IMG/VR virus record: IMGVR_UViG_3300031951_001103
Coordinates: 1-25,498 of that record
Strand: one strand, 5' to 3'
Length of the DNA stretch: 25,498 nt
Source of the DNA: a virus
The translations under genes were made by a program, and so were the position numbers. Below, in pieces: positions 4,632-16,634 of the stretch (position 1 is its first letter; each line of letters starts with the position of its first letter). A model generated the notes under the pieces. The model was not told the DNA's origin, did no database searches, and saw only the letters and a program-made list of their open reading frames with translations.

Positions 4632-5174
4632 TTATATTTTACTTCTCTCTTTATAAAAAATGTGGTTACCAATCTGTGTAATTTTTGGTAAATTCCAATT
4701 AGGCTTCACATAATTGGCATGATAATACATGGCCTTCTCTTTGTGTAGTGTAACATGAGCAACTTCAGATGTCAAGGCTTTCTTTGCAACAAGTACCGAT
4801 TCTTCCCATTGGTATGGGTTACGAATCATACTGTATGCCTGATTACAGAACCAAGAGAACTGGCAGACCATTCTACCATTCACTTCATCTTTTTGTTTTA
4901 CAACACCACAAACGGTCTTTGGAAATTTGCCAGAGTTTACACGATTGAGTGTTACTTGTGCTACTGCCAGTTTACCTTCAAAGGACTCACTAGCAGATTC
5001 ATAATAAATGTTTTCAGCAAGGCATTGTACCTCATTACTGAAATGATTGCCAAGGTTTGAAACAGTTACTTTGTTTGCTTGTGCCTTGGCTACGGGAATT
5101 AGTAGATTAACTGCAATAAGAGCTGTTGAGATTGCAATTAAAAATTTATTTGTTACTTTACGGTTGAAATACAT
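4632..5174 (-). CDS. Secreted SleB-type cell-wall hydrolase
   Basis: This 180-residue protein has a classical N-terminal signal sequence: a basic start, a hydrophobic run at about 11-28 and VAKAQA cleavage near residue 31. The remainder is a cell-wall hydrolase of the SleB family. CLAENIYYESASES (candidate catalytic Glu at 54) is followed by GKLAVAQVTLNRVNSG, FPKTVCGVV, CQFSWFC and the late AMYYHANYVKPNW segment. Cysteines 51, 89, 104 and 110 may form disulphides in the periplasm. The enzyme should cut peptidoglycan glycan strands. Export through the host Sec system would make it a holin-independent or signal-arrest type endolysin. The ribosome-binding site is AAGGAAG. It sits next to gp33, and the two tiny membrane proteins upstream of the tmRNA are the nearest holin candidates. 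Family is confident; lysis role is inferred. Confidence 0.85.
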   Translation of the reverse strand: MYFNRKVTNKFLIAISTALIAVNLLIPVAKAQANKVTVSNLGNHFSNEVQCLAENIYYESASESFEGKLAVAQVTLNRVNSGKFPKTVCGVVKQKDEVNGRMVCQFSWFCNQAYSMIRNPYQWEESVLVAKKALTSEVAHVTLHKEKAMYYHANYVKPNWNLPKITQIGNHIFYKERSKI

Positions 5175-5194
5175 TTTTCTTCCTTATTGATTAC

Positions 5195-5216
5195 GGCGGC
5201 CAAACTTCTGACCGCC
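5195..5216 (-). promoter_or_regulatory. Intergenic RNA hairpin before the SleB gene
   Basis: On the minus strand GGCGGTC pairs with GGCCGCC (seven pairs including one G-T) around an eight-base loop. It lies between the stop of the 90-residue gene and the ribosome-binding site of the hydrolase. No U-tract follows, so it is unlikely to be a simple terminator. mRNA processing, stability or partial attenuation are possible. Confidence 0.4.
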
Positions 5217-5227
5217 TTGGTCTCCAA

Positions 5228-5500
5228 TTACGAATTAGTTTTCGATTTTATTTTAACTTCAGGTTGTGGAGGGGTTTGAGAAACGAATAGATTGAGGGCT
5301 TCTGCCTTCTTAACTATATCTGTTTCTGTGGGGAATGGTGGCAATTCGGGGATATCAGGTGATTCTAAACCGGCAATTTTTGCTGCCTCAACCTGTGTGT
5401 GCCATTGTTCTAGTTTAGCGCTTCTGTTATATGAATACTCATCAGATACTAAACCTTGTGCCATTTTTAATAATTCTAGGCGAATTTCATATGGTGTCAT
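5228..5500 (-). CDS. Conserved T4-like phage protein of unknown function
   Basis: This 90-residue protein has a helical N-terminal half (MTPYEIRLELLKMAQGL...) and a Pro-rich middle (SPDIPELPPFPTETD). I recognise the MTPYEIRLELLKMA start as recurring in aquatic T4-like phages near replication and late-regulation genes, but know no function. AGGAGTG lies eight bases before the ATG. It follows the tmRNA and precedes the SleB hydrolase; a GATAAATA sequence near 5571-5564 might act as a weak late promoter for it. Confidence 0.7.
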   Translation of the reverse strand: MTPYEIRLELLKMAQGLVSDEYSYNRSAKLEQWHTQVEAAKIAGLESPDIPELPPFPTETDIVKKAEALNLFVSQTPPQPEVKIKSKTNS

Positions 5501-5618
5501 ACTTTCACTCCTGTGTGTGTTAATGTGTGTAATGTATCAGCGGTTTGTGTGTTGCTGATATATTATTTATCCAGGTGATTCTGTTGCTAAGTTCACCTGG
5601 TGAAACTCCGCTTACCTA

Positions 5619-5651
5619 TCAGGCAGCAAGTGCAAACTTATTATCGTTAGC
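5619..5651 (-). other. tmRNA tag-peptide reading frame (ANDNKFALAA)
   Basis: From the resume codon GCT at 5651-5649 the frame reads ANDNKFALAA and ends with TGA, directly followed by TAG. The AND start and ALAA end match the bacterial degradation-tag pattern (E. coli ANDENYALAA), with ALAA being the ClpXP recognition end. The intact tag argues the RNA is functional and marks host or phage proteins for proteolysis rather than being a relic. Confidence 0.92.
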
Positions 5652-5732
5652 GTTTAATTTAATTAGTGATTACGCCTTCTCTGGCGATTCTCCATTGTTC
5701 TAATTATTGCCATGTCGAATCTAGGCACCCCC

Positions 5733-5800
5733 ATCAGAAGTATATTGCCACAACTATAATGTGTGTTTGCTACCGATAACTCGGTTTGTCAATATACTTT
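5733..5800 (-). other. Excised spacer between tmRNA pieces
   Basis: This 68-base segment separates the CCA end from the mature 5' end. It begins with AAGTATATTG (5799-5790), which is perfectly complementary to CAATATACTT (5747-5738) near its other end, so the precursor can form a 10-bp helix extending the acceptor stem after a short internal loop. Inside are a CCGA/TCGG mini-hairpin and a CACAC/TTGTG-type pairing. RNase P and 3' nucleases would be expected to remove it, as in known permuted tmRNAs. Confidence 0.85.
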
Positions 5801-5860
5801 TGGTGGAGGTGGTGGGAATCGCACCCACGTCCACAACAACTTTGAAACAACTTCTACGAA

Positions 5861-5971
5861 TTACTTCAATACAAAAAGCATTGCAAACACAGCCAATGCA
5901 AAAGCACAGGCACCAGTATAAAATGCAAAACTTTTTACTTTAACTTGTCTTACACAATCTTTGCTAGGCAT
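5861..5971 (-). CDS. Tiny single-span membrane protein, 36 aa
   Basis: The ATG at 5971 shares its A with the stop of the preceding 41-residue frame (TAATG), and AAAGGA lies about eight bases upstream. Residues 1-14 are polar and basic (MPSKDCVRQVKVKS) and 15-35 form one hydrophobic span (FAFYTGACAFALAVFAMLFVL) ending in Lys. Its stop lies only a few bases before the tmRNA acceptor piece. No family recognised. A holin-like or other inner-membrane role is possible given the nearby secreted hydrolase. Confidence 0.6.
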   Translation of the reverse strand: MPSKDCVRQVKVKSFAFYTGACAFALAVFAMLFVLK

Positions 5972-6096
5972 TACAGGATCCTTTCTAGTAACCAAATAAC
6001 AAAAAGAAAACTTAAACCACCAGCCAATATTTTTAAAGCTCCCAATTGTCTTTCGTTCTGCTCGGGAGTGCAGAGTTTTTTCCAATGCTTATTCAT
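5971..6096 (-). CDS. Tiny membrane protein, 41 aa, possibly leaderless
   Basis: The product begins MNKHWKKLCTPEQNERQLG and has one hydrophobic span at about residues 21-38 (LKILAGGLSFLFVIWLLE). The ATG at 6096 lies where the strong promoter at 6133-6105 would start transcription, so the mRNA may have no leader. AGGA is present at 6104-6101 but would then be largely untranscribed. It is coupled by TAATG to the 36-residue membrane protein. Function unknown. Confidence 0.6.
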   Translation of the reverse strand: MNKHWKKLCTPEQNERQLGALKILAGGLSFLFVIWLLERIL

Positions 6097-6104
6097 AGAG
6101 TCCT

Positions 6105-6133
6105 ATTATAAGTGTTTATACTTATTTAGTCAA
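6105..6133 (-). promoter_or_regulatory. Strong sigma70-type promoter for the small membrane genes and tmRNA
   Basis: TTGACT (6133-6128) and a perfect TATAAT (6110-6105) are separated by 17 bases on the minus strand. It lies just after the stop of the nuclease gene. The predicted start of transcription is at about 6098-6096, at the ATG of the 41-residue frame. Apart from the two tiny coding frames, the next clear product downstream is the tmRNA. Confidence 0.8.
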
Positions 6134-6142
6134 GCCATTCAC

Positions 6143-6802
6143 TCAATGTTTACCATTTTTCTCATAATATGAAATGGCATTGACTAGGCCTGTTATGTGG
6201 TCCTCAGTCTTTTGTTTGAACACGATAGGACTTGAATCCTCAACGGCCATGACGATAACCAAGTCATGGATAGGTTCACCAATCAACTCCTCATACATCA
6301 AGGCATAGGCAGATGTTTGCCAGAAGTAATCTTCGATATCTTCGTGGCTCTTAATCTTTTTGGATGTTTTAAAATCGATTACCGAAAGCACACCATCAAA
6401 CTCAGCAATACAATCCACACGACCCGCCATCTTTAATTGTGTAGACCATAACGCCTGTTCTTGATAATGAATGTTGTTGATACGATTGAGATGTGGTTTG
6501 ATTGATAAAAACATTTCATGTGCATCAGGCATTATATTACCCAATGATTCATTGTTTAAATATTTTTCACACAAAGTATGCACATTGGTGCCACGAGAGG
6601 TTGCTTTCTTTGTAATGGCATTGGCAACATCTTCACCCACTTTATTACGCCATGCTTGAAAGATATGTTTCTTTTGGGCACCAATTACTGTAGTAACCGA
6701 TGGTAGTTTTGTACCATCAGGCAGTTTATAGAATCTTCGGCCATCAGGAAATGTTTCTGATTTCAGGTCTTGTAATTGTTTTGGTGGGCAGTAATTAAAC
6801 AT
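6143..6802 (-). CDS. PD-(D/E)XK-family nuclease (RecB/Cas4/MGME1-like exonuclease)
   Basis: This 219-residue protein shows the motifs of the RecB-like PD-(D/E)XK fold. RGTNVHTLCEKYL (H75) is the early GxxxH motif and YQEQALWS carries Glu 115. GRVDCIAEFDGVLSVIDFKTSKK provides D130, D143 and K145, and QTSAYALMYEE (about 162-172) is the trailing Q-x3-Y motif. These coordinate metal for DNA cleavage, usually as a single-strand exonuclease in DNA processing or recombination. Aquatic T4-like phages often carry this type. The start overlaps the end of the upstream oxygenase gene, so it is translationally linked to the modification cassette, though the function looks separate. Confidence 0.88.
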   Translation of the reverse strand: MFNYCPPKQLQDLKSETFPDGRRFYKLPDGTKLPSVTTVIGAQKKHIFQAWRNKVGEDVANAITKKATSRGTNVHTLCEKYLNNESLGNIMPDAHEMFLSIKPHLNRINNIHYQEQALWSTQLKMAGRVDCIAEFDGVLSVIDFKTSKKIKSHEDIEDYFWQTSAYALMYEELIGEPIHDLVIVMAVEDSSPIVFKQKTEDHITGLVNAISYYEKNGKH

Positions 6803-7454
6803 TTTCTCTCATTTTTAAAAAACTATTAGTCCAACTTTTTAACACCATGGCATTTGGTGCATTTCTATCTATCTTTTGTTTTATATCGGTTGATAATGAA
6901 ATACGCAAATCATTTGATTTATTTGATTGAACTTCATGAACAATATATGCTGGAAAAAATATCAACATCCCTTCTTCAGGTTCAATGTGTATATGTTTTA
7001 ATTCTGATTTATCATTATGAGCAAATGCACCTTTATCATCAATAATATTTTCTGTGCTGAGTAATACTAGGTCACCAGAATTTTCTTTTGCACGAATATA
7101 ATAGGTGGCTGTGAGTGATGCATCATTGTGTGCGTGTGCTTCAATACTTTCACCTGGTTCTTTGATATTGGCCCATGCCATCACATAATCTGGTTCTATA
7201 TTAAGTTGTTGTGCTTCTGATATTAAAGAGAATACGTGCTTCTTGACGGCCAAATTTATAATACTCTTTAGATAATTTAAATGTGGTCGGTCATATTCCC
7301 ATAAACTATCTTTGGGATTGCCATCACGACCTGTTGCAATATCTTTGGCAATCCAATAAAGTTCTTCTTCTAGTTCCCAATTGAATTGACTATTGAGGCC
7401 TGTTTGAACTGCCCAATATGGTGACACCCACCAATTACTTTTTACAATATCCAT
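6795..7454 (-). CDS. 2OG-Fe(II) oxygenase (phage type)
   Basis: This 219-residue protein carries the double-stranded beta-helix iron site. EAHAHNDASLTATYYI supplies H109 and D111, VHEVQSN supplies H173, and R184 in LRISLSTD would bind 2-oxoglutarate. The IEPEEGMLIFFPAYIVHEV stretch is typical of the phage-type 2OG oxygenase family seen in cyanophages. Such enzymes hydroxylate proteins, nucleic acids or small molecules with oxygen and 2-oxoglutarate. It is the third of three consecutive, mutually dissimilar oxygenase-like genes that end and start within a few bases of one another. Substrate unknown; the neighbouring Asn-Cys-rich fibre protein is one candidate. Confidence 0.88.
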   Translation of the reverse strand: MDIVKSNWWVSPYWAVQTGLNSQFNWELEEELYWIAKDIATGRDGNPKDSLWEYDRPHLNYLKSIINLAVKKHVFSLISEAQQLNIEPDYVMAWANIKEPGESIEAHAHNDASLTATYYIRAKENSGDLVLLSTENIIDDKGAFAHNDKSELKHIHIEPEEGMLIFFPAYIVHEVQSNKSNDLRISLSTDIKQKIDRNAPNAMVLKSWTNSFLKMRENV

Positions 7455-8233
7455 TATTCTTTCTTTGTAACAAACTTCTCTTTAATCTTATCAAAGTATG
7501 CAATCTCATCTGGTGTAAGAGTTACTTCATCCATATTCTTACGATATGTAATGGCATCTTGTTCCATTAATTGTATATTACCAGTATACTTAAAATGATT
7601 TGTAATTTGTTTTGTATCGTAGGCATCCATAATGATGTGATAACGATCCTCATCCGAATCATTACGAATCTGGTGCCACAAATTTACCCACATAATATAC
7701 ACAGAACCGTCAGCAGGCAGATGTAATGATTTGCCTTGGCAGATATGCACACTTTTCTTATTAGTGATTAATGGAATGTGAATACGAGCCATGTAATTAT
7801 TTGTGGCTGCATCTTTGTGTACCAAAGATTTAGAATGTGCTTGTAGGCATGAAACTCTTGCTCGGCGTGGATAGAATCCCAATTCTTCTAATTGGTTCAA
7901 TACTTCTTTAATATAACCTGTGCAACCTTGTGTTGGGTTTTTATGTTCAAATGCGTGAGATACATTGAGGTACTTCATGGCTCTATAGTTGTATTGGCCA
8001 TTAGGAAAAAACATATCATTTGTTTCTTTATCATCTGAGTGATATACTTCCCAACCATCTCGCCAATCACCGGTACGAGATAATAATGTCCAACCACCAA
8101 AGCCATGATATTCTACAGTTTCAAATTCTTCACCTTGTATTTGTTGTTTACCAAGTGTAAATACTTTTTCTTCTACTTCTTTTCGTAGTCGGTCAATATC
8201 TACTTTGAAATCTAATTTTTCAATCCACATCAT
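7454..8233 (-). CDS. Aspartyl/asparaginyl beta-hydroxylase-like oxygenase
   Basis: This 259-residue protein fits the Asp/Asn beta-hydroxylase family of 2OG-dependent oxygenases. LVHKDAATNNYMARIHIPL gives H139 and D141 of the iron site with the family's Arg at 150. LPADGSVYIMWVNLWHQIRNDSDEDRYHIIMDAYD gives H187 and the 2OG-binding R197. Known members hydroxylate Asp or Asn in Cys-rich EGF-like domains, or free proline. That is notable because an Asn-Cys repeat protein lies three genes upstream in the same transcription direction. It overlaps both neighbouring oxygenase genes by one to four bases. Family is confident; substrate is inference. Confidence 0.88.
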   Translation of the reverse strand: MMWIEKLDFKVDIDRLRKEVEEKVFTLGKQQIQGEEFETVEYHGFGGWTLLSRTGDWRDGWEVYHSDDKETNDMFFPNGQYNYRAMKYLNVSHAFEHKNPTQGCTGYIKEVLNQLEELGFYPRRARVSCLQAHSKSLVHKDAATNNYMARIHIPLITNKKSVHICQGKSLHLPADGSVYIMWVNLWHQIRNDSDEDRYHIIMDAYDTKQITNHFKYTGNIQLMEQDAITYRKNMDEVTLTPDEIAYFDKIKEKFVTKKE

Positions 8234-8769
8234 AAGTTTCCTGTTTCGTGTAACATATTACATACATCATCATAATTATATGTATTCGTTGCCAAAGACA
8301 ATCCTAATCGTTCTGTAATATCACCAATTGGTTTTACGCTGTGTGGTTGACTTACATCAAGCACCCATGCATCATATTGGTTGGCAATAAAACTGCCAGC
8401 TGGCACTAAATCTATTTCATCAAATATAAAACCTTCTTTTTGATTTTCTATCTGATATTTTTTAGGTTCACCTTTAAATTTATAAAAGTGTGTGGTACAG
8501 TTACTTGTTTCAATATAAAAATTAATTGTTACCATAATACCTGTATCGGTATGTGGAGGTATTATAGTATTAATTTTCATTAATGTCAAGCAAAAGTTCT
8601 CTCGATATTGGTTAGGTACCAAACTAAAGAGAGAATCAGTATTTGAGTAGTTGATGTTGAAGTATTCGATGCCTTTAAATTGGCCGTCTACCTGTTCACC
8701 AAATTGTATGCGAGAACCAGTTATATCAAATGGTTTTGGATTGAATTTGTTTTTTAGTTTTAAGAACAT
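8230..8769 (-). CDS. 2OG-Fe(II) oxygenase-like protein
   Basis: This 179-residue protein shows IIPPHTDTGIMVTINFYI (H73 and D75). After a CTTHFYKF strand and GSFIANQYDAWVLDVSQPHSV it provides H143, then R154 in ERLGLSLAT. The H-x-D...H...R arrangement and the gate-like 'HTDT' strand indicate a jelly-roll 2OG oxygenase. It resembles neither of its two neighbours closely, so the trio is not a recent tandem duplication. Stop and start overlap the next gene (8230-8233). Substrate unknown. Confidence 0.75.
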   Translation of the reverse strand: MFLKLKNKFNPKPFDITGSRIQFGEQVDGQFKGIEYFNINYSNTDSLFSLVPNQYRENFCLTLMKINTIIPPHTDTGIMVTINFYIETSNCTTHFYKFKGEPKKYQIENQKEGFIFDEIDLVPAGSFIANQYDAWVLDVSQPHSVKPIGDITERLGLSLATNTYNYDDVCNMLHETGNL

Positions 8770-8785
8770 GACGAATCATAATATA

Positions 8786-9163
8786 CTAAGCCTTAGAGGC
8801 TTTCCATTCTTCATAGGCACGAATAATTGGGCAATCATAATCCCAATTAATGCCTTCGTGTGGATTGGCATTGGCTGCTGCAAAGCGTTTACCTTGGACG
8901 TGTTCAATGATATCGATACCAGGATGTAGTATTTTTTCTAAAATATCAGCATACTGTTCAATCATTTGAAAGAATTGAACTTTATCTTCTGGTGATAAAT
9001 TCAATATGTCATTACCTAATTGATTATCAAAGTAATGAACAATGTGTTTTCTATAAGCATTGAGTTCTTCTTCGGTTACTGTACCATCACGATTTAAATC
9101 AGCATCAGCCACACCATCAGCATTGAGGTCGATATCTTTTAAGTTAATGTTAATGTCTGTCAT
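8786..9163 (-). CDS. Protein with N-terminal EF-hand/dockerin-like calcium loop
   Basis: In this 125-residue protein residues 12-33 contain two consecutive DxNxDG units. The second is a complete 12-residue EF-hand loop (D22, N24, D26, G27, T28, T30, E33 in DLNRDGTVTEEE), so calcium binding is expected. The remainder is helical and acidic, with a CPIIRAYEEWKASKA end. It starts by an ATGA overlap with the stop of the Asn-Cys-rich fibre gene, so the two are translationally coupled and probably both late. It could be a calcium-dependent virion or chaperone protein; no specific family recognised. Confidence 0.75.
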   Translation of the reverse strand: MTDININLKDIDLNADGVADADLNRDGTVTEEELNAYRKHIVHYFDNQLGNDILNLSPEDKVQFFQMIEQYADILEKILHPGIDIIEHVQGKRFAAANANPHEGINWDYDCPIIRAYEEWKASKA

Positions 9164-10062
9164 TTAGCAAATCCTTGAACAAATTTTGTTTTTACATACA
9201 TTTTAATTTTATTTAATTTATTAGTTGTTTTAACGTATGTTGTGGCGTAAAAATAACTACCTAAACACAAGAACCACATCATCCATGATCCAAATAAACC
9301 TAATTTATATTTCTTAGGTAAACTAAACACAAATTTACAAATTGGTCGGCCGATATTCATTAATATTTTACCAACTTCATTGTCATTCTTAACAGCACCC
9401 ATAAGATATGCCATGTGTTCCGACCAAGGTGTAGCTATTTTATAAGCCCATTTTGTTGTTGCTTCTTTTTGTTTTTGGTTTCGTTCTTCTTTATTAACCC
9501 AAAACATAAAGTTAGGACCTGTGCCATCCATCCAAGCAGTTACAGTTTTTGCCCAGCGTATGTAACCACGATATACTACTTTATCATTTTTCTTTAACCA
9601 TTCACCATATTGTTGGTCAGCAGCAAATATTGAATATGGCATCATTCCAAATTGATGTAATTTTGTGCAAATAATTTTAGAGCAGTTGCAAGCACAATTA
9701 CAATTATATGATGTTTCTGATGTGGTACAATTGTAAGGTGTTGTTACACAATTACAGTTTGTTTGTAACCAGTTTTGTGTATCACAGTTGGTACAGTTTA
9801 CAGAACCTGAAATGAGGCAGTTATTACACTGGATATTACCACAGTTACAGTTACTTGTGCAGTTACCATTGTTGCAATTGCCTTGTGTGTTATTCTGAAA
9901 GAAATTTAAATTATAAAAATTATTCATGGCCGGTGTGGCTGGCCGTTGAGTAGGTACAATCTGGTCGTTTAGAAATTGTAGGCTGGATGAGAAGGTAGGT
10001 GCTTGACCTATCTCACTATTTACGTCAGCAAAACTAATTGTTCCAGATGATGGTAATGTCAT
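9160..10062 (-). CDS. Tail-fibre-like virion protein with Asn-Cys-rich repeat
   Basis: This protein has 300 residues. The N-terminus (MTLPSSGTISFADVNSEIG, then FSSSLQFLN) is the attachment-type start common on phage tail-fibre and structural proteins. Residues 63-132 contain 16 cysteines, 13 of them directly preceded by Asn (for example NCNNGNCTSNCNCGN). The C-terminal 170 residues form a different, Trp-rich domain (YRGYIRWAKTVTAWMDGTGP, ATPWSEHMAYLMGA), with a hydrophobic stretch at about 254-277. A perfect T4 late promoter lies 30 bases upstream, matching virion expression. The radical SAM/SPASM gene lies directly upstream and the oxygenases downstream, suggesting the repeat is modified or binds metal. 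Function beyond virion protein is inference. Confidence 0.75.
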   Translation of the reverse strand: MTLPSSGTISFADVNSEIGQAPTFSSSLQFLNDQIVPTQRPATPAMNNFYNLNFFQNNTQGNCNNGNCTSNCNCGNIQCNNCLISGSVNCTNCDTQNWLQTNCNCVTTPYNCTTSETSYNCNCACNCSKIICTKLHQFGMMPYSIFAADQQYGEWLKKNDKVVYRGYIRWAKTVTAWMDGTGPNFMFWVNKEERNQKQKEATTKWAYKIATPWSEHMAYLMGAVKNDNEVGKILMNIGRPICKFVFSLPKKYKLGLFGSWMMWFLCLGSYFYATTYVKTTNKLNKIKMYVKTKFVQGFAK

Positions 10063-10074
10063 GGTTATTACTCT

Positions 10075-11544
10075 TTAATTGGTTACTTCTGTATTTATAC
10101 CATCGGCCAATCGTGACTTTCCGTAGACTTCCACACCTTCAATCTCGCCAATTTTTTCACTTACTACTTTGATTGGTATAATCTTTTTCTTTGGTTCTTC
10201 TTTGTGTTCATATACGGTACCCCAAATATCTTGGCGTTCCAATGGTAATTCTGGATGTTTGATTAATACAGGAATATAACCTGTCATACGAGCCAGAGCT
10301 ACAGCAAAGAGAGCCACATTGTCTGAATAGGAGTTGGCACATGATATATCCCAAAACTTTTTATCTAAGAACATACAGGCACCTTTACACAGGTGCAATA
10401 CAGGACATTTAGGACATTCTTTACGATTTGACCAATGGGTTGAGGTTTTAATCTCAACCTTATCGAATTCTTTTAGATTACCACCATGATGTGATTCACC
10501 ATTTTTACCTATCTCTAGAGCACTTACGTTCTGACAGGTCATTACATTACCACGCAAATCAACTGCCATAACGTGTTCATCATCCATGCCACATTTTTGT
10601 CCAAGATATTTTGATTCTGAGTGAGATAGAACTGCCTGAGTAAAACCATCTATCTTACCTAATTGACCAAAGAAACCAATTTGACCATTGGTTACATAAA
10701 TGTCTGAGAAGGCTGTTTTGCGGTAATCAAAGTGTTCAGCTTTGGTCTGTAAACTATTCTGCATACCATCTTCATCATAACTATCTACAATACCACCTTC
10801 ACCAAGTTTAATATCAGGATCACCGGTAAGATTGACGAACCACTCATAGATTTCTTTACGAGATTTGTTTTTAGAATTCATCATTGGATTAAAACTGATA
10901 CCTTTACCCAAACGGGACATAGCACGATAGAAATCTAAAATGATTTTCTTTTGGTCTGGATCATCAAACGGATCAGGACCACGAACTGATTGACCAGGTC
11001 CATCATGTGAGATTGATACAGAAAAATCCATCATCATCAACCAATCACAAATATCTGGTGTAAGAATAGAACCATTAGTAATTACAGAGAATCGTGGTTT
11101 ATTTTCCCAATGTTCAAATCGGTCACGAATGGTCTCTGCCAATGGTTTCATGGTTTTCCAATAAACAAATGGTTCACCACCCCAAAACTCAATTGAGAGT
11201 CCTTTCTTTTCATCAAACTCTAATGTATCAAACATTTCCATGAAAGCATCAATGTCTTTCTTAGATGTTTCAGGCATACGTTCAACAAACTTCTGTGAAC
11301 AATAATCGCATGAGTAATTACAACTCAAACCCATTTGAATTTTGAGTATTTGAACCTGTTTAGATTTTTTAAGTGGGTGGTCTTTGTCGAATGGACGATA
11401 TGGTGTGAGATTGTGGTCGTGAATTGTGCCTTCAGGAAATTGAAAGGTAATTCCATCTTCACTCTTTAGTATGTTTGTTTCATTATCATAATAAAATATT
11501 TTTTTATCGTTTGCACTTCGTTCAGAGTGTATTTCAAATATCAT
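10075..11544 (-). CDS. Radical SAM enzyme with SPASM domain (peptide/protein maturase-like)
   Basis: In this 489-residue protein the radical SAM cluster motif is C75-X3-C79-X2-C82 (LSCNYSCDYCSQ), with FWGGEPFVY (about 120-128) as the SAM-binding GGE motif and ISHDGPG near 179-184. The C-terminal SPASM domain shows its full signature: C318, X13, G332, X4, C337, then C377-X2-C380-X5-C386-X3-C390 and C402, enough for two auxiliary iron-sulphur clusters. The family includes sulphatase-maturing enzymes and RiPP maturases that form thioether, carbon-carbon or oxidised residues on peptides. The N-terminal 60 residues may be a substrate-recognition or leader-binding part. Directly downstream is an Asn-Cys-rich virion protein, the obvious candidate substrate; this link is inference. 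Confidence 0.9.
   Translation of the reverse strand: MIFEIHSERSANDKKIFYYDNETNILKSEDGITFQFPEGTIHDHNLTPYRPFDKDHPLKKSKQVQILKIQMGLSCNYSCDYCSQKFVERMPETSKKDIDAFMEMFDTLEFDEKKGLSIEFWGGEPFVYWKTMKPLAETIRDRFEHWENKPRFSVITNGSILTPDICDWLMMMDFSVSISHDGPGQSVRGPDPFDDPDQKKIILDFYRAMSRLGKGISFNPMMNSKNKSRKEIYEWFVNLTGDPDIKLGEGGIVDSYDEDGMQNSLQTKAEHFDYRKTAFSDIYVTNGQIGFFGQLGKIDGFTQAVLSHSESKYLGQKCGMDDEHVMAVDLRGNVMTCQNVSALEIGKNGESHHGGNLKEFDKVEIKTSTHWSNRKECPKCPVLHLCKGACMFLDKKFWDISCANSYSDNVALFAVALARMTGYIPVLIKHPELPLERQDIWGTVYEHKEEPKKKIIPIKVVSEKIGEIEGVEVYGKSRLADGINTEVTN
10092..10099 (-). promoter_or_regulatory. T4-type late promoter
   Basis: On the minus strand the sequence reads GGTATAAATACAG, containing the exact T4 late -10 element TATAAATA. 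It sits within the last codons of the radical SAM gene, 30 bases before the ATG of the Asn-Cys-rich fibre gene. The window also encodes gp33, the co-activator such promoters need. It is the only exact match I found. Confidence 0.8.
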
Positions 11545-11704: not shown

Positions 11705-11828
11705 CCGTTCTCCTTTGGTCTTTATTATATTTTCGGACACGCTGAGCTTTTACTATGGGGACAATTTTATCATTGACACCTCGCCGTTTGGTTAATAGAA
11801 TAGGGGTTTGAGTATTGAATACTACCAT
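11619..11828 (-). CDS. Small Arg/Lys-rich protein, 69 aa
   Basis: The ATG at 11828 overlaps the TGG-TAG end of the preceding gene, suggesting coupled translation. The product is rich in Lys, Arg and Gln (KRRG, KAQRVRKYNKDQRR, QQGKSKARIG). That composition could bind nucleic acid. Its last 86 bases overlap the 52-residue frame in another phase. A frameshift joining the two is an alternative. Function unknown. Confidence 0.45.
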   Translation of the reverse strand: MVVFNTQTPILLTKRRGVNDKIVPIVKAQRVRKYNKDQRRTDEQEANDVKTTAAILRISQQGKSKARIG

Positions 11829-12103
11829 TCTCTAGGCAACTTTGTCTTGTGTGATTTGTGTAAGGTATTTCCTGGTACTGTATCTTTGATTCTTTGTATG
11901 ACACCTTTCTCAAAGGCAGAATCGGCAGTCTTGGTACCTGGTACAGACATACGACCAACATCACCGAAAACTGGTAGGTTCTCGGCTGAGTGGTATCGTT
12001 GTAAATGTGGATTATTTTGTATGAATTCGTCTAACACCGTGTAAGACATACGGTGTTCTTCAATTTGTTTGGTTTCTTTATTCAAAAAATCATAGGTTGG
12101 CAT
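11822..12103 (-). CDS. Conserved T4-like phage protein (MPTYDF family)
   Basis: This 93-residue protein begins MPTYDFLNKETKQIEEHRMS, reminiscent of the FmdB-type small regulator start (MPTYxxxC) but with no cysteine, so it cannot form a zinc ribbon. Central NLPVFGDVGRMSVPG and C-terminal VIQRIKDTVPGNTLHKS blocks look conserved. I recognise it as recurrent in aquatic T4-like phages without a known role. The start overlaps the previous stop by TAATG. Confidence 0.7.
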   Translation of the reverse strand: MPTYDFLNKETKQIEEHRMSYTVLDEFIQNNPHLQRYHSAENLPVFGDVGRMSVPGTKTADSAFEKGVIQRIKDTVPGNTLHKSHKTKLPREW

Positions 12104-15357: not shown

Positions 15358-16194
15358 CTATACTTTCAGTAATTGTGATAGTGTATAAGTGGATTCCATG
15401 TATGATGATGGATTATCCAATACACTACATTCTAAATCACCTTCTCGTCTTTGGCAATAGTTTATTTGAAAATTGCAATTGTTTACCAGTTTAAAGGTAT
15501 CTACCATTTGTCTAACAGTATGACCTTTACCATGTCCTAGGTTTTCTAATGAATTGGCAGGTGTTTCAATTGCTTTTTGAATAGAATGGCATATTTCATT
15601 CACATGAACATAATCTCTAACAGGTGTGCCATCTGGTGTATTGTAATCACCACCATATAAATTGAATGAACCTGTTTCTTTTGCTTTCATTAAGTTATAC
15701 ATCAACCCATCCATATTGGTGGGTGCAATCCCATCAGACCCAATCACATTATAAAATCTGAATGAAGTGAAAGTCTTTGTATTTTCAATGCAATATCTTC
15801 CTACTATATCTTCAGCACAACGCTTACTCAAGGCATATGGGTTGATGGGATTAGCGGCTGTGCCTGTCGATGCAAACACAAAATTCTTGTAATTTAAATT
15901 CGTTAATACATTATGTGTACCATTAATATTGGTATCATAATACTCATATGGTTTTAATACTGATTCATTTACTTTGACCAATGCGGCCAAATGAACCACA
16001 GTATCAAACTCATCAGAATAACATAATTGATAATCATTTGTAATATCATATTGAAGAAATTGTTTGGGTAACAAATAATCATTCAAACATGGTTTAATAT
16101 CAGTACCAAACACCTCGTATCCTTCCTTTTTGAGGAGCTTTACAAGGTGTTGGCCAATATAACCAGAACTACCGGTTATCAATACTTTTTTCAT
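15358..16194 (-). CDS. NAD-dependent nucleotide-sugar epimerase (GalE-like, extended SDR)
   Basis: This 278-residue protein has the N-terminal Rossmann motif TGSSGYIG (G8, G11, G14), an acidic residue after the second strand (D32), VVHLAALVKV, and the catalytic FASTGTA with Y120 and K124 (NPYALSKRC). YNVIGSDG and the late GTPVRDYVHVNE block are typical of UDP-glucose 4-epimerase relatives. It should interconvert UDP-sugars, perhaps feeding glycosylation of phage or host surface sugars. Somewhat shorter than cellular GalE (about 330-340). Starts by TAATG overlap with the rubrerythrin stop. Confidence 0.9.
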   Translation of the reverse strand: MKKVLITGSSGYIGQHLVKLLKKEGYEVFGTDIKPCLNDYLLPKQFLQYDITNDYQLCYSDEFDTVVHLAALVKVNESVLKPYEYYDTNINGTHNVLTNLNYKNFVFASTGTAANPINPYALSKRCAEDIVGRYCIENTKTFTSFRFYNVIGSDGIAPTNMDGLMYNLMKAKETGSFNLYGGDYNTPDGTPVRDYVHVNEICHSIQKAIETPANSLENLGHGKGHTVRQMVDTFKLVNNCNFQINYCQRREGDLECSVLDNPSSYMESTYTLSQLLKV

Positions 16195-16634
16195 TAAGCT
16201 TGTTCTGCTTTATGTGCTTCTAATGTTTTACGGAACTTATTGGCATGACTACGCTCTGCTTTGGCTAATGTTTCAAACCAATCAGCAATCTCATCAAAGC
16301 CTTCATCACGAGCGGTCTTTGCCATACCAGGATACATATCGCTGTATTCATGAGTTTCACCGTGAATTGCAGACTCTAATGCTTCTGCTACGGTTGCAGC
16401 CGATAGACCAGTACCTGGATCTCCAGCACCACCAGTCAATAGATATTCCATGTGTCCATGTGCATGACCTGTTTCACCTTCAGCGGTAGAACGGAACACA
16501 GCGGCTACATCTGGTGAGCCTGCCACATCGGCCATGTTTGCAAAATACAAATAACGGCGATTTGCTTGTGATTCACCTGCAAATGCTTCTTTCAATGCTG
16601 CTTCGGTACGAGTACCTTTTACTGATTTTGCCAT
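16194..16634 (-). CDS. Rubrerythrin (diiron peroxidase)
   Basis: This 146-residue four-helix-bundle protein carries the diiron ligands of rubrerythrin: E21 ([10 protein letters not shown]), E54 and H57 (EGETGH), E93 (HGETHEY) and E127 with H130 (KAERSH). Rubrerythrins reduce hydrogen peroxide, taking electrons from rubredoxin. This form lacks the C-terminal rubredoxin domain of classical members, and a separate rubredoxin-like gene lies directly upstream in the same unit. Ala- and Gly-rich composition is unlike the surrounding phage proteins, suggesting a bacterial origin. AAGGAG lies just before the start, overlapping the rubredoxin stop. Confidence 0.93.

Follow-up and report, generated by a model that had tools for sequence, protein, structure and literature searches.

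A phage cassette that pairs a SPASM radical SAM enzyme with an Asn-Cys-rich late protein: a candidate system for tag modification

Peptide-acting SPASM enzymes of the radical S-adenosylmethionine (SAM) type use a 5'-deoxyadenosyl radical and auxiliary Fe–S clusters, and maturases of the radical SAM type have been described for small peptides that are secreted. One of them, NxxcB, links Cys23 of NxxcA to Asn20 by a beta-thioether (PMC8326336). Here we describe a locus in a viral sequence of 25,498 bases (source record IMGVR_UViG_3300031951_001103; hereafter the window), in which, as in NxxcA/NxxcB and with other ranthipeptide maturases (PapB, CteB/SCIFF, CefB), a SPASM radical SAM gene adjoins the gene of a Cys-rich protein. 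We propose, with a probability of roughly 0.66, that this locus is a phage-encoded maturation cassette resembling those of ribosomally synthesised and post-translationally modified peptides (RiPPs), which would modify the Asn-Cys tag of a late-expressed protein of fibre type, probably by thioether crosslinks.

The cassette consists of six leftward genes with intergenic spacings of -8 to +16 bases and is bounded by a small regulator gene (11822-12103) and a PDDEXK exonuclease gene (Table 1). All genes lie on the minus strand at the positions that a preliminary description, made from the bare sequence, had assigned to them. That description also named a SPASM radical SAM enzyme with a complete seven-Cys signature, which agrees with the profile scores (Radical_SAM Pfam 34.7 bits, cut-off 29.5; SPASM TIGR04085 32.1 bits, cut-off 27) as well as with the Cys positions. 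The CX3CX2C motif (Cys 75/79/82) is invariant in 19 diverse relatives, and the SPASM signature (CX9-15GX4C, CX2CX5CX3C, C; Cys 318, 337, 377, 380, 386, 390 and 402) is invariant or nearly so. The scores shown for the curated maturase families (NCBIfam equivalogs) were all far below their cut-offs, the best match being PapB with 79.9 bits against a cut-off of 340. The nearest solved enzymes by sequence are 8vpo, 5wgg, which we take to be CteB, and anaerobic sulfatase maturases (4k36/4k37 rank with the best matches to PDB sequences). Of the phages in a set of 50,697 records, only the Achromobacter phages JWF and 2-1 had a close relative of the enzyme.

Table 1 Features of the cassette and its flank (positions in the window)
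Feature	Position	Strand	Remarks
PDDEXK exonuclease	6143..6802	-	Flank outside the system; conserved flank in Melnitz
TIGR02466 / 2OG-FeII_Oxy_5 oxygenase, 219 aa	6795..7454	-	Over TIGR02466 and PF13759 cut-offs; accessory shared with prophage-type cassettes
Asp/Asn beta-hydroxylase family (PF05118) oxygenase, 259 aa	7454..8233	-	34.1 bits (cut-off 22.6)
Double-stranded beta-helix oxygenase, 179 aa	8230..8769	-	Invariant H73xD75...H143...R154; confident model
Small helical accessory protein, 125 aa	8786..9163	-	N-terminal EF-hand motif not conserved in family
Asn-Cys protein, 300 aa, predicted substrate	9160..10062	-	N-terminal ~50 aa, Asn-Cys array, helical C-terminal domain
Asn-Cys array, residues 62-132, predicted disordered	9667..9879	-	16 Cys, 13 NC pairs
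SPASM radical SAM maturase, 489 aa, PHROG 1802	10075..11544	-	Pfam/NCBIfam/PHROG matches; predicted modifier of Asn-Cys array
T4-type late promoter TATAAATA	10092..10099	-	30 bases before Asn-Cys start codon, within 3' end of radical SAM gene

The Asn-Cys protein holds 16 of its 18 Cys within 70 residues (63-132), and Asn precedes 13 of these. Shuffling of the whole protein gave at most 13 Cys per 70 residues and at most seven NC pairs, while shuffling of the array alone (n = 5000) gave a mean of 4.0 and a maximum of 10 NC pairs against the 13 observed. Across comparisons Cys was conserved in the array at 87% and Asn at 76%, the remaining array residues at 56%, with many synonymous codon changes. 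Since Cys and Asn are kept far above the other array residues while the codons drift synonymously, selection on the array acts, by this comparison, at the protein level and not on a DNA repeat. In 40 distinct homologues the residue before Cys was Asn in 493 of 651 cases, Ala in 72, Gln in 43 and Asp in 35. An AlphaFold model predicts the array as disordered and residues 130-300 as helical, ending in a long helix with a hydrophobic stretch. A fold search with this model matched only the C-terminal helical domain (three phage proteins with E <0.001); Synechococcus phage S-MITS9220M01 has this domain in a protein of its fibre cluster. The preliminary description had called the protein fibre-like and Asn-Cys-rich; its counts of Cys and NC pairs were exact. 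The window protein itself showed no similarity to known tail fibres in the PHROG search and matched no PHROG or Pfam family.

The strongest evidence for a functional link comes from the pairing of enzyme and tag. A scan of viral contigs for the radical SAM enzyme gave 50 loci; an Asn-Cys gene lies beside the enzyme in 46 of them, and in the other four the contig begins or breaks off at the enzyme. The Asn-Cys gene may follow the enzyme, as in the window, or precede it, and some viral Asn-Cys proteins have no helical domain and end in ...CNCNCGG (L039-L043). Since the flanking genes differ in several loci (L018, L022-L025, L027, L031, L049), the cassette moves between phage backgrounds. For the reverse search, viral contigs were scanned for the bare DNA pattern of NCNCxCNC, and matches were taken as real if their reading frame stayed open over 50 or more upstream codons. 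The radical SAM family was present on 35 of the 38 real-frame contigs versus one of the 41 chance matches (Fisher P = 9e-18), and in that sole enzyme-bearing chance match the contig end truncates the frame. The enzyme is missing from three real-frame contigs: in L065 the frame looks antisense, in L068 the match is not terminal, and L121 is a fragment of 10.9 kb. Co-occurrence across viral contigs had been named in the preliminary description as the check to make, and it holds in both search directions for radical SAM and Asn-Cys protein, while the 2-oxoglutarate (2OG) oxygenases turned out to be optional. Asn-Cys proteins commonly occurring without the enzymes, which would have spoken against the idea, were looked for and not encountered. 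Two further loci (L069, L106) encode proteins with CQGCQTCQGC repeats ending in NCNCDCNCNCSDDS, with a distant radical SAM gene nearby.

The same pairing extends to prophages. When bacterial genomes were scanned with an alignment of the enzyme, 80 relatives turned up, mostly with 31-59% identity, and among the loci with enough upstream sequence 53 of 63 have a tag, so that the maturase adjoins a Cys-rich predicted substrate gene in 46/46 testable viral and 53/63 bacterial loci. Over the 63 bacterial loci, the tag was upstream on the same strand in 52, downstream in one and on the opposite strand in one. The ten loci without the tag include two with a YC/SC variant (L246, L251) and four in a different, non-phage cluster. 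The former pair, from Magnetospirillum (4778-9236), has two tandem radical SAM genes and the variant tag YCSYCSYCTCACSDCSC. In the latter four (L234, L240, L242, L244; ~8000-9300) the radical SAM relatives lie in chromosomal clusters of non-phage type, which also encode an ATP-grasp-like protein and one of ~770 aa and may represent a peptide-modification system of their own. Within one bacterial family (201 genomes) the enzyme was present in three; the two genomes in which the tag is real have it 3-4 kb from the enzyme, and the third is of the non-phage type. The Asn-Cys DNA pattern was also tried on whole bacterial genomes and rejected; it is unusable there without reading frames, because the hits read were mostly (AACTGC)n microsatellites or chance frames.

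In the prophages and in JWF the tag, [N/A/D]C-[N/A/D]C..., is encoded 0-4 genes upstream of the enzyme. The prophage tags are borne by tail fibres whose genes adjoin those of gpJ-type tip proteins or tape measures, and two of these carriers (L128, L055) match tail-fibre PHROGs. Carriers are structural-type proteins of mostly about 90-620 aa; the tag usually forms their extreme C-terminus. Of 49 distinct tags 33 have Cys as the last residue, and the spacing between consecutive Cys is 2 in 202 of 258 pairs. The cultured Achromobacter phage JWF, a temperate siphovirus (PMC3899368), encodes a 46% identical enzyme, annotated as anaerobic sulfatase maturase. It lies two genes downstream of the fibre PJWF_00028, which bears NCNCDCNCNCSC and a Hint domain. 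A Hint domain also directly follows the tag in Burkholderia paludis and in four Rhodospirillaceae-type loci (Hint-after-tag tail-fibre loci: L002:5793-7244, L192, L239, L241, L245, L252). If the Hint domain cleaves itself, the tag would again become C-terminal. A family of ~279 aa without Pfam or PHROG match (b0; L128:6947-7774) lies between tagged fibre and radical SAM gene in 56 of 87 loci and in none of the 50 loci close to the window. Altogether, 129 enzyme-tag pairs fall into 17 enzyme clusters at 50% identity, and outside the tag the carriers fall into unrelated clusters. Because b0 is absent from all window-close loci and the carriers are otherwise unrelated, it is the tag that the enzyme tracks. 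Enzyme-substrate pairing is thus strongly supported by these comparisons, with the tag as the probable substrate, and two-way co-occurrence on many phage backgrounds is in agreement with the earlier suggestion that the repeat is post-translationally modified.

The promoters point to a late protein. In the window TATAAATA has a sole exact match, although ~3 would be expected, so that the count alone is not rare. Among the homologous loci, however, a T4-type late promoter (T)ATAAATA lies at most 70 bases (mostly 31-41) upstream of 36 of 40 Asn-Cys genes, compared to 4 of 38 radical SAM genes and 0-1 for each other cassette enzyme; in 10 of 21 loci it is also found before the gene of the small upstream regulator. 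This would place the Asn-Cys protein in the class in which T4-like phages express virion proteins, and the protein may be part of the virion. Late-promoter placement and the tail-fibre carriers elsewhere together support a structural substrate.

Among the accessory proteins, three 2OG oxygenases had been proposed. Two of them, including the Asp/Asn beta-hydroxylase singled out in the proposal, score above the cut-offs of their families (Table 1), while the third has no family match and is recognised by its model (a double-stranded beta-helix, pLDDT 94) and the invariant HxD...H...R. Its fold matches are weak (TM <0.5) and comprise NO66/MINA53 ribosomal oxygenases and cupins, also ADO- and cysteine-dioxygenase-like proteins. 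A gene of ~215 aa between tagged fibre and enzyme in 40 prophage-type loci is homologous to the TIGR02466 oxygenase of the window (HHalign 99.3%, E 8.5e-21). Since 46 of 87 diverse loci and 41 of 50 loci close to the window have one or more 2OG-type genes, the 2OG oxygenases are by this count frequent but optional accessories, and the radical SAM enzyme alone is universal. An EF-hand, claimed earlier for the small helical protein, was rejected as functional part, since its score is under the Pfam cut-offs and the calcium loop is present in 7 of 37 family members. About ten loci contain one or two fatty-acid-desaturase-family genes inside the cassette (e.g. L012:3886-4605).

We propose the following mechanism. 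The SPASM radical SAM enzyme would recognise a tag of low complexity, with Cys alternating with Asn or, more rarely, with Ala, Asp or Gln, and most likely takes hydrogen from tag residues and joins Cys sulphur to them as thioethers. Multiple thioethers are favoured because the (NC)n tag repeats the NxxC spacing, every NCNC containing one NxxC. The TIGR02466-like 2OG oxygenase in many phages, here together with two more, may hydroxylate the tag or its carrier. As carrier we envisage a structural protein that is expressed late. In most cases this would be a tail fibre tipped by the tag, which a Hint domain might expose in some phages; in the window phage it would be a small protein with internal array and helical tail. 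The likely outcome is a covalently stiffened fibre tip, and a metal-binding or protease-resistant role of the repeat, also brought up in the preliminary description, is guesswork.

Several observations weigh against this proposal. The array is internal in the window protein, and the cassette sits in a replication/regulation region and not in a tail-fibre locus. Neither a leader peptide nor a RiPP recognition element (RRE) domain was seen. Asn cannot be the sole acceptor, since about one Cys in ten directly follows Ala. About half of the diverse loci have no 2OG enzymes, which makes an action of these on the tag less secure. A motif match occurs in the isolated phage HTVC008M. Finally, the contigs of the chance-match control were partly shorter than the tagged ones, although several exceed 40 kb and none of those has the enzyme, and related loci inflate the raw counts, which was tempered by clustering at 50% identity.

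The main rival to crosslinking is a different modification of the same tag, i.e. a formylglycine-like Cys oxidation or altered stereochemistry or side chains of Asn and Cys, resulting in a reactive or metal-binding tip. Anaerobic sulfatase maturases among the nearest solved relatives, the annotation of the JWF enzyme and the dioxygenase-like fold matches of the cupin-type partner are in line with this, but no sulfatase signature [CS]x[PA]xR is present in the window Asn-Cys protein, and strict alternation with many Cys per tag fits multiple linkages better than a single oxidised residue. We regard this explanation as unlikely. Alternatively, the tag could be a metal, Fe–S or disulfide module that is merely co-inherited with a radical SAM enzyme acting on another fibre component, since Cys-rich sequences often bind metals, the oxygenases and the radical SAM protein are iron enzymes themselves, and other genes such as b0 are common to many loci. 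The tag is nevertheless the most constant partner, among carriers that have little else in common and in loci that have no b0, and we hold a mere co-inheritance to be improbable.

The long hydrophobic helix of the window protein and the desaturase-like membrane enzymes of some cassettes would also suit a secreted or membrane peptide, such as a bacteriocin or a superinfection-exclusion RiPP anchored by this helix. A late promoter before the Asn-Cys genes and, in most other phages, a tag that ends tail-fibre proteins beside gpJ argue against such a product, for which we see only a slim chance. That common phage enzymes and a Cys-rich orphan cluster by chance is negligibly probable: phrog_81-type 2OG oxygenases are common in marine phages, and Mosig has one alone, but chance is contradicted by the two-way co-occurrence and by 17 divergent enzyme clusters, all of them tagged. 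Thioether crosslinking of the tag remains the reading that we prefer.

The window is a fragment of a T4-like myophage. Its gene order resembles that of the Methylophilales phage Melnitz, with a gp32-type single-stranded DNA-binding protein, a cell wall hydrolase, the PDDEXK exonuclease and a transfer-messenger RNA (tmRNA). At the position of the cassette Melnitz and HTVC008M carry PhoH and small genes, and because they do so without the cassette, it looks like a unit that was gained or lost as a whole. The isolated T4-like relatives Melnitz, HTVC008M and Mosig do not have the enzyme: Melnitz showed neither the radical SAM gene nor the tag pattern, and in HTVC008M and Mosig the radical SAM match was only weak and distant, with no convincing tag. 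The predicted tmRNA (5528-5895, minus strand; tag ANDNKFALAA) has a counterpart at the same place in Melnitz phages. A rubrerythrin gene (16194-16634, minus strand; Pfam 94 bits) adjoins an NAD-dependent epimerase gene (15358-16194), here in a T4-like phage.

In titles and abstracts of the open-licence literature we found no description of such a system, and the finishing of a virus's own particle proteins by a virus-encoded radical enzyme would be previously undescribed. More tentatively, at somewhat less than even odds, the cassettes represent machinery that is widespread among viruses and dedicated to one task: the SPASM radical SAM enzyme, in many cases accompanied by 2OG oxygenases, would covalently crosslink Asn-Cys tags at tail-fibre tips. 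If this is true, it adds a layer to how phages of Burkholderiales, Rhodobacterales, Rhodospirillales and other hosts build their receptor-contacting tips, explains a recurrent set of "hypothetical" genes and supplies chemists with a large number of natural, highly regular peptides as substrates for a single enzyme family.

Compared to the known radical SAM maturases, a family devoted to tagged phage structural proteins would differ in its target. Unlike in ranthipeptide maturase systems, the enzyme is predicted to act on a tag carried by a structural protein of a phage, it has 2OG oxygenases as partners, and its scores are far below curated cut-offs. Thioether RiPPs have a short precursor with a removable leader, while no short leader peptide was seen here and the carriers are structural-type proteins; we therefore do not class the cassette as a ranthipeptide system, though it appears RiPP-like in its working. 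With the anaerobic sulfatase-maturating enzymes the window enzyme shares the SPASM architecture, but the cassette has no sulfatase and its Asn-Cys protein no sulfatase signature. The Asp/Asn beta-hydroxylase and TIGR02466 oxygenases belong to described families; the difference here is their grouping with a radical SAM enzyme about a single phage protein rich in Cys. C-terminal domains for autoprocessing or with chaperone function (Hint, endosialidase chaperone) are likewise known from tail fibres, and some Asn-Cys tags directly precede Hint; what differs here is that the residues before this domain form an enzyme-linked Asn-Cys tag.

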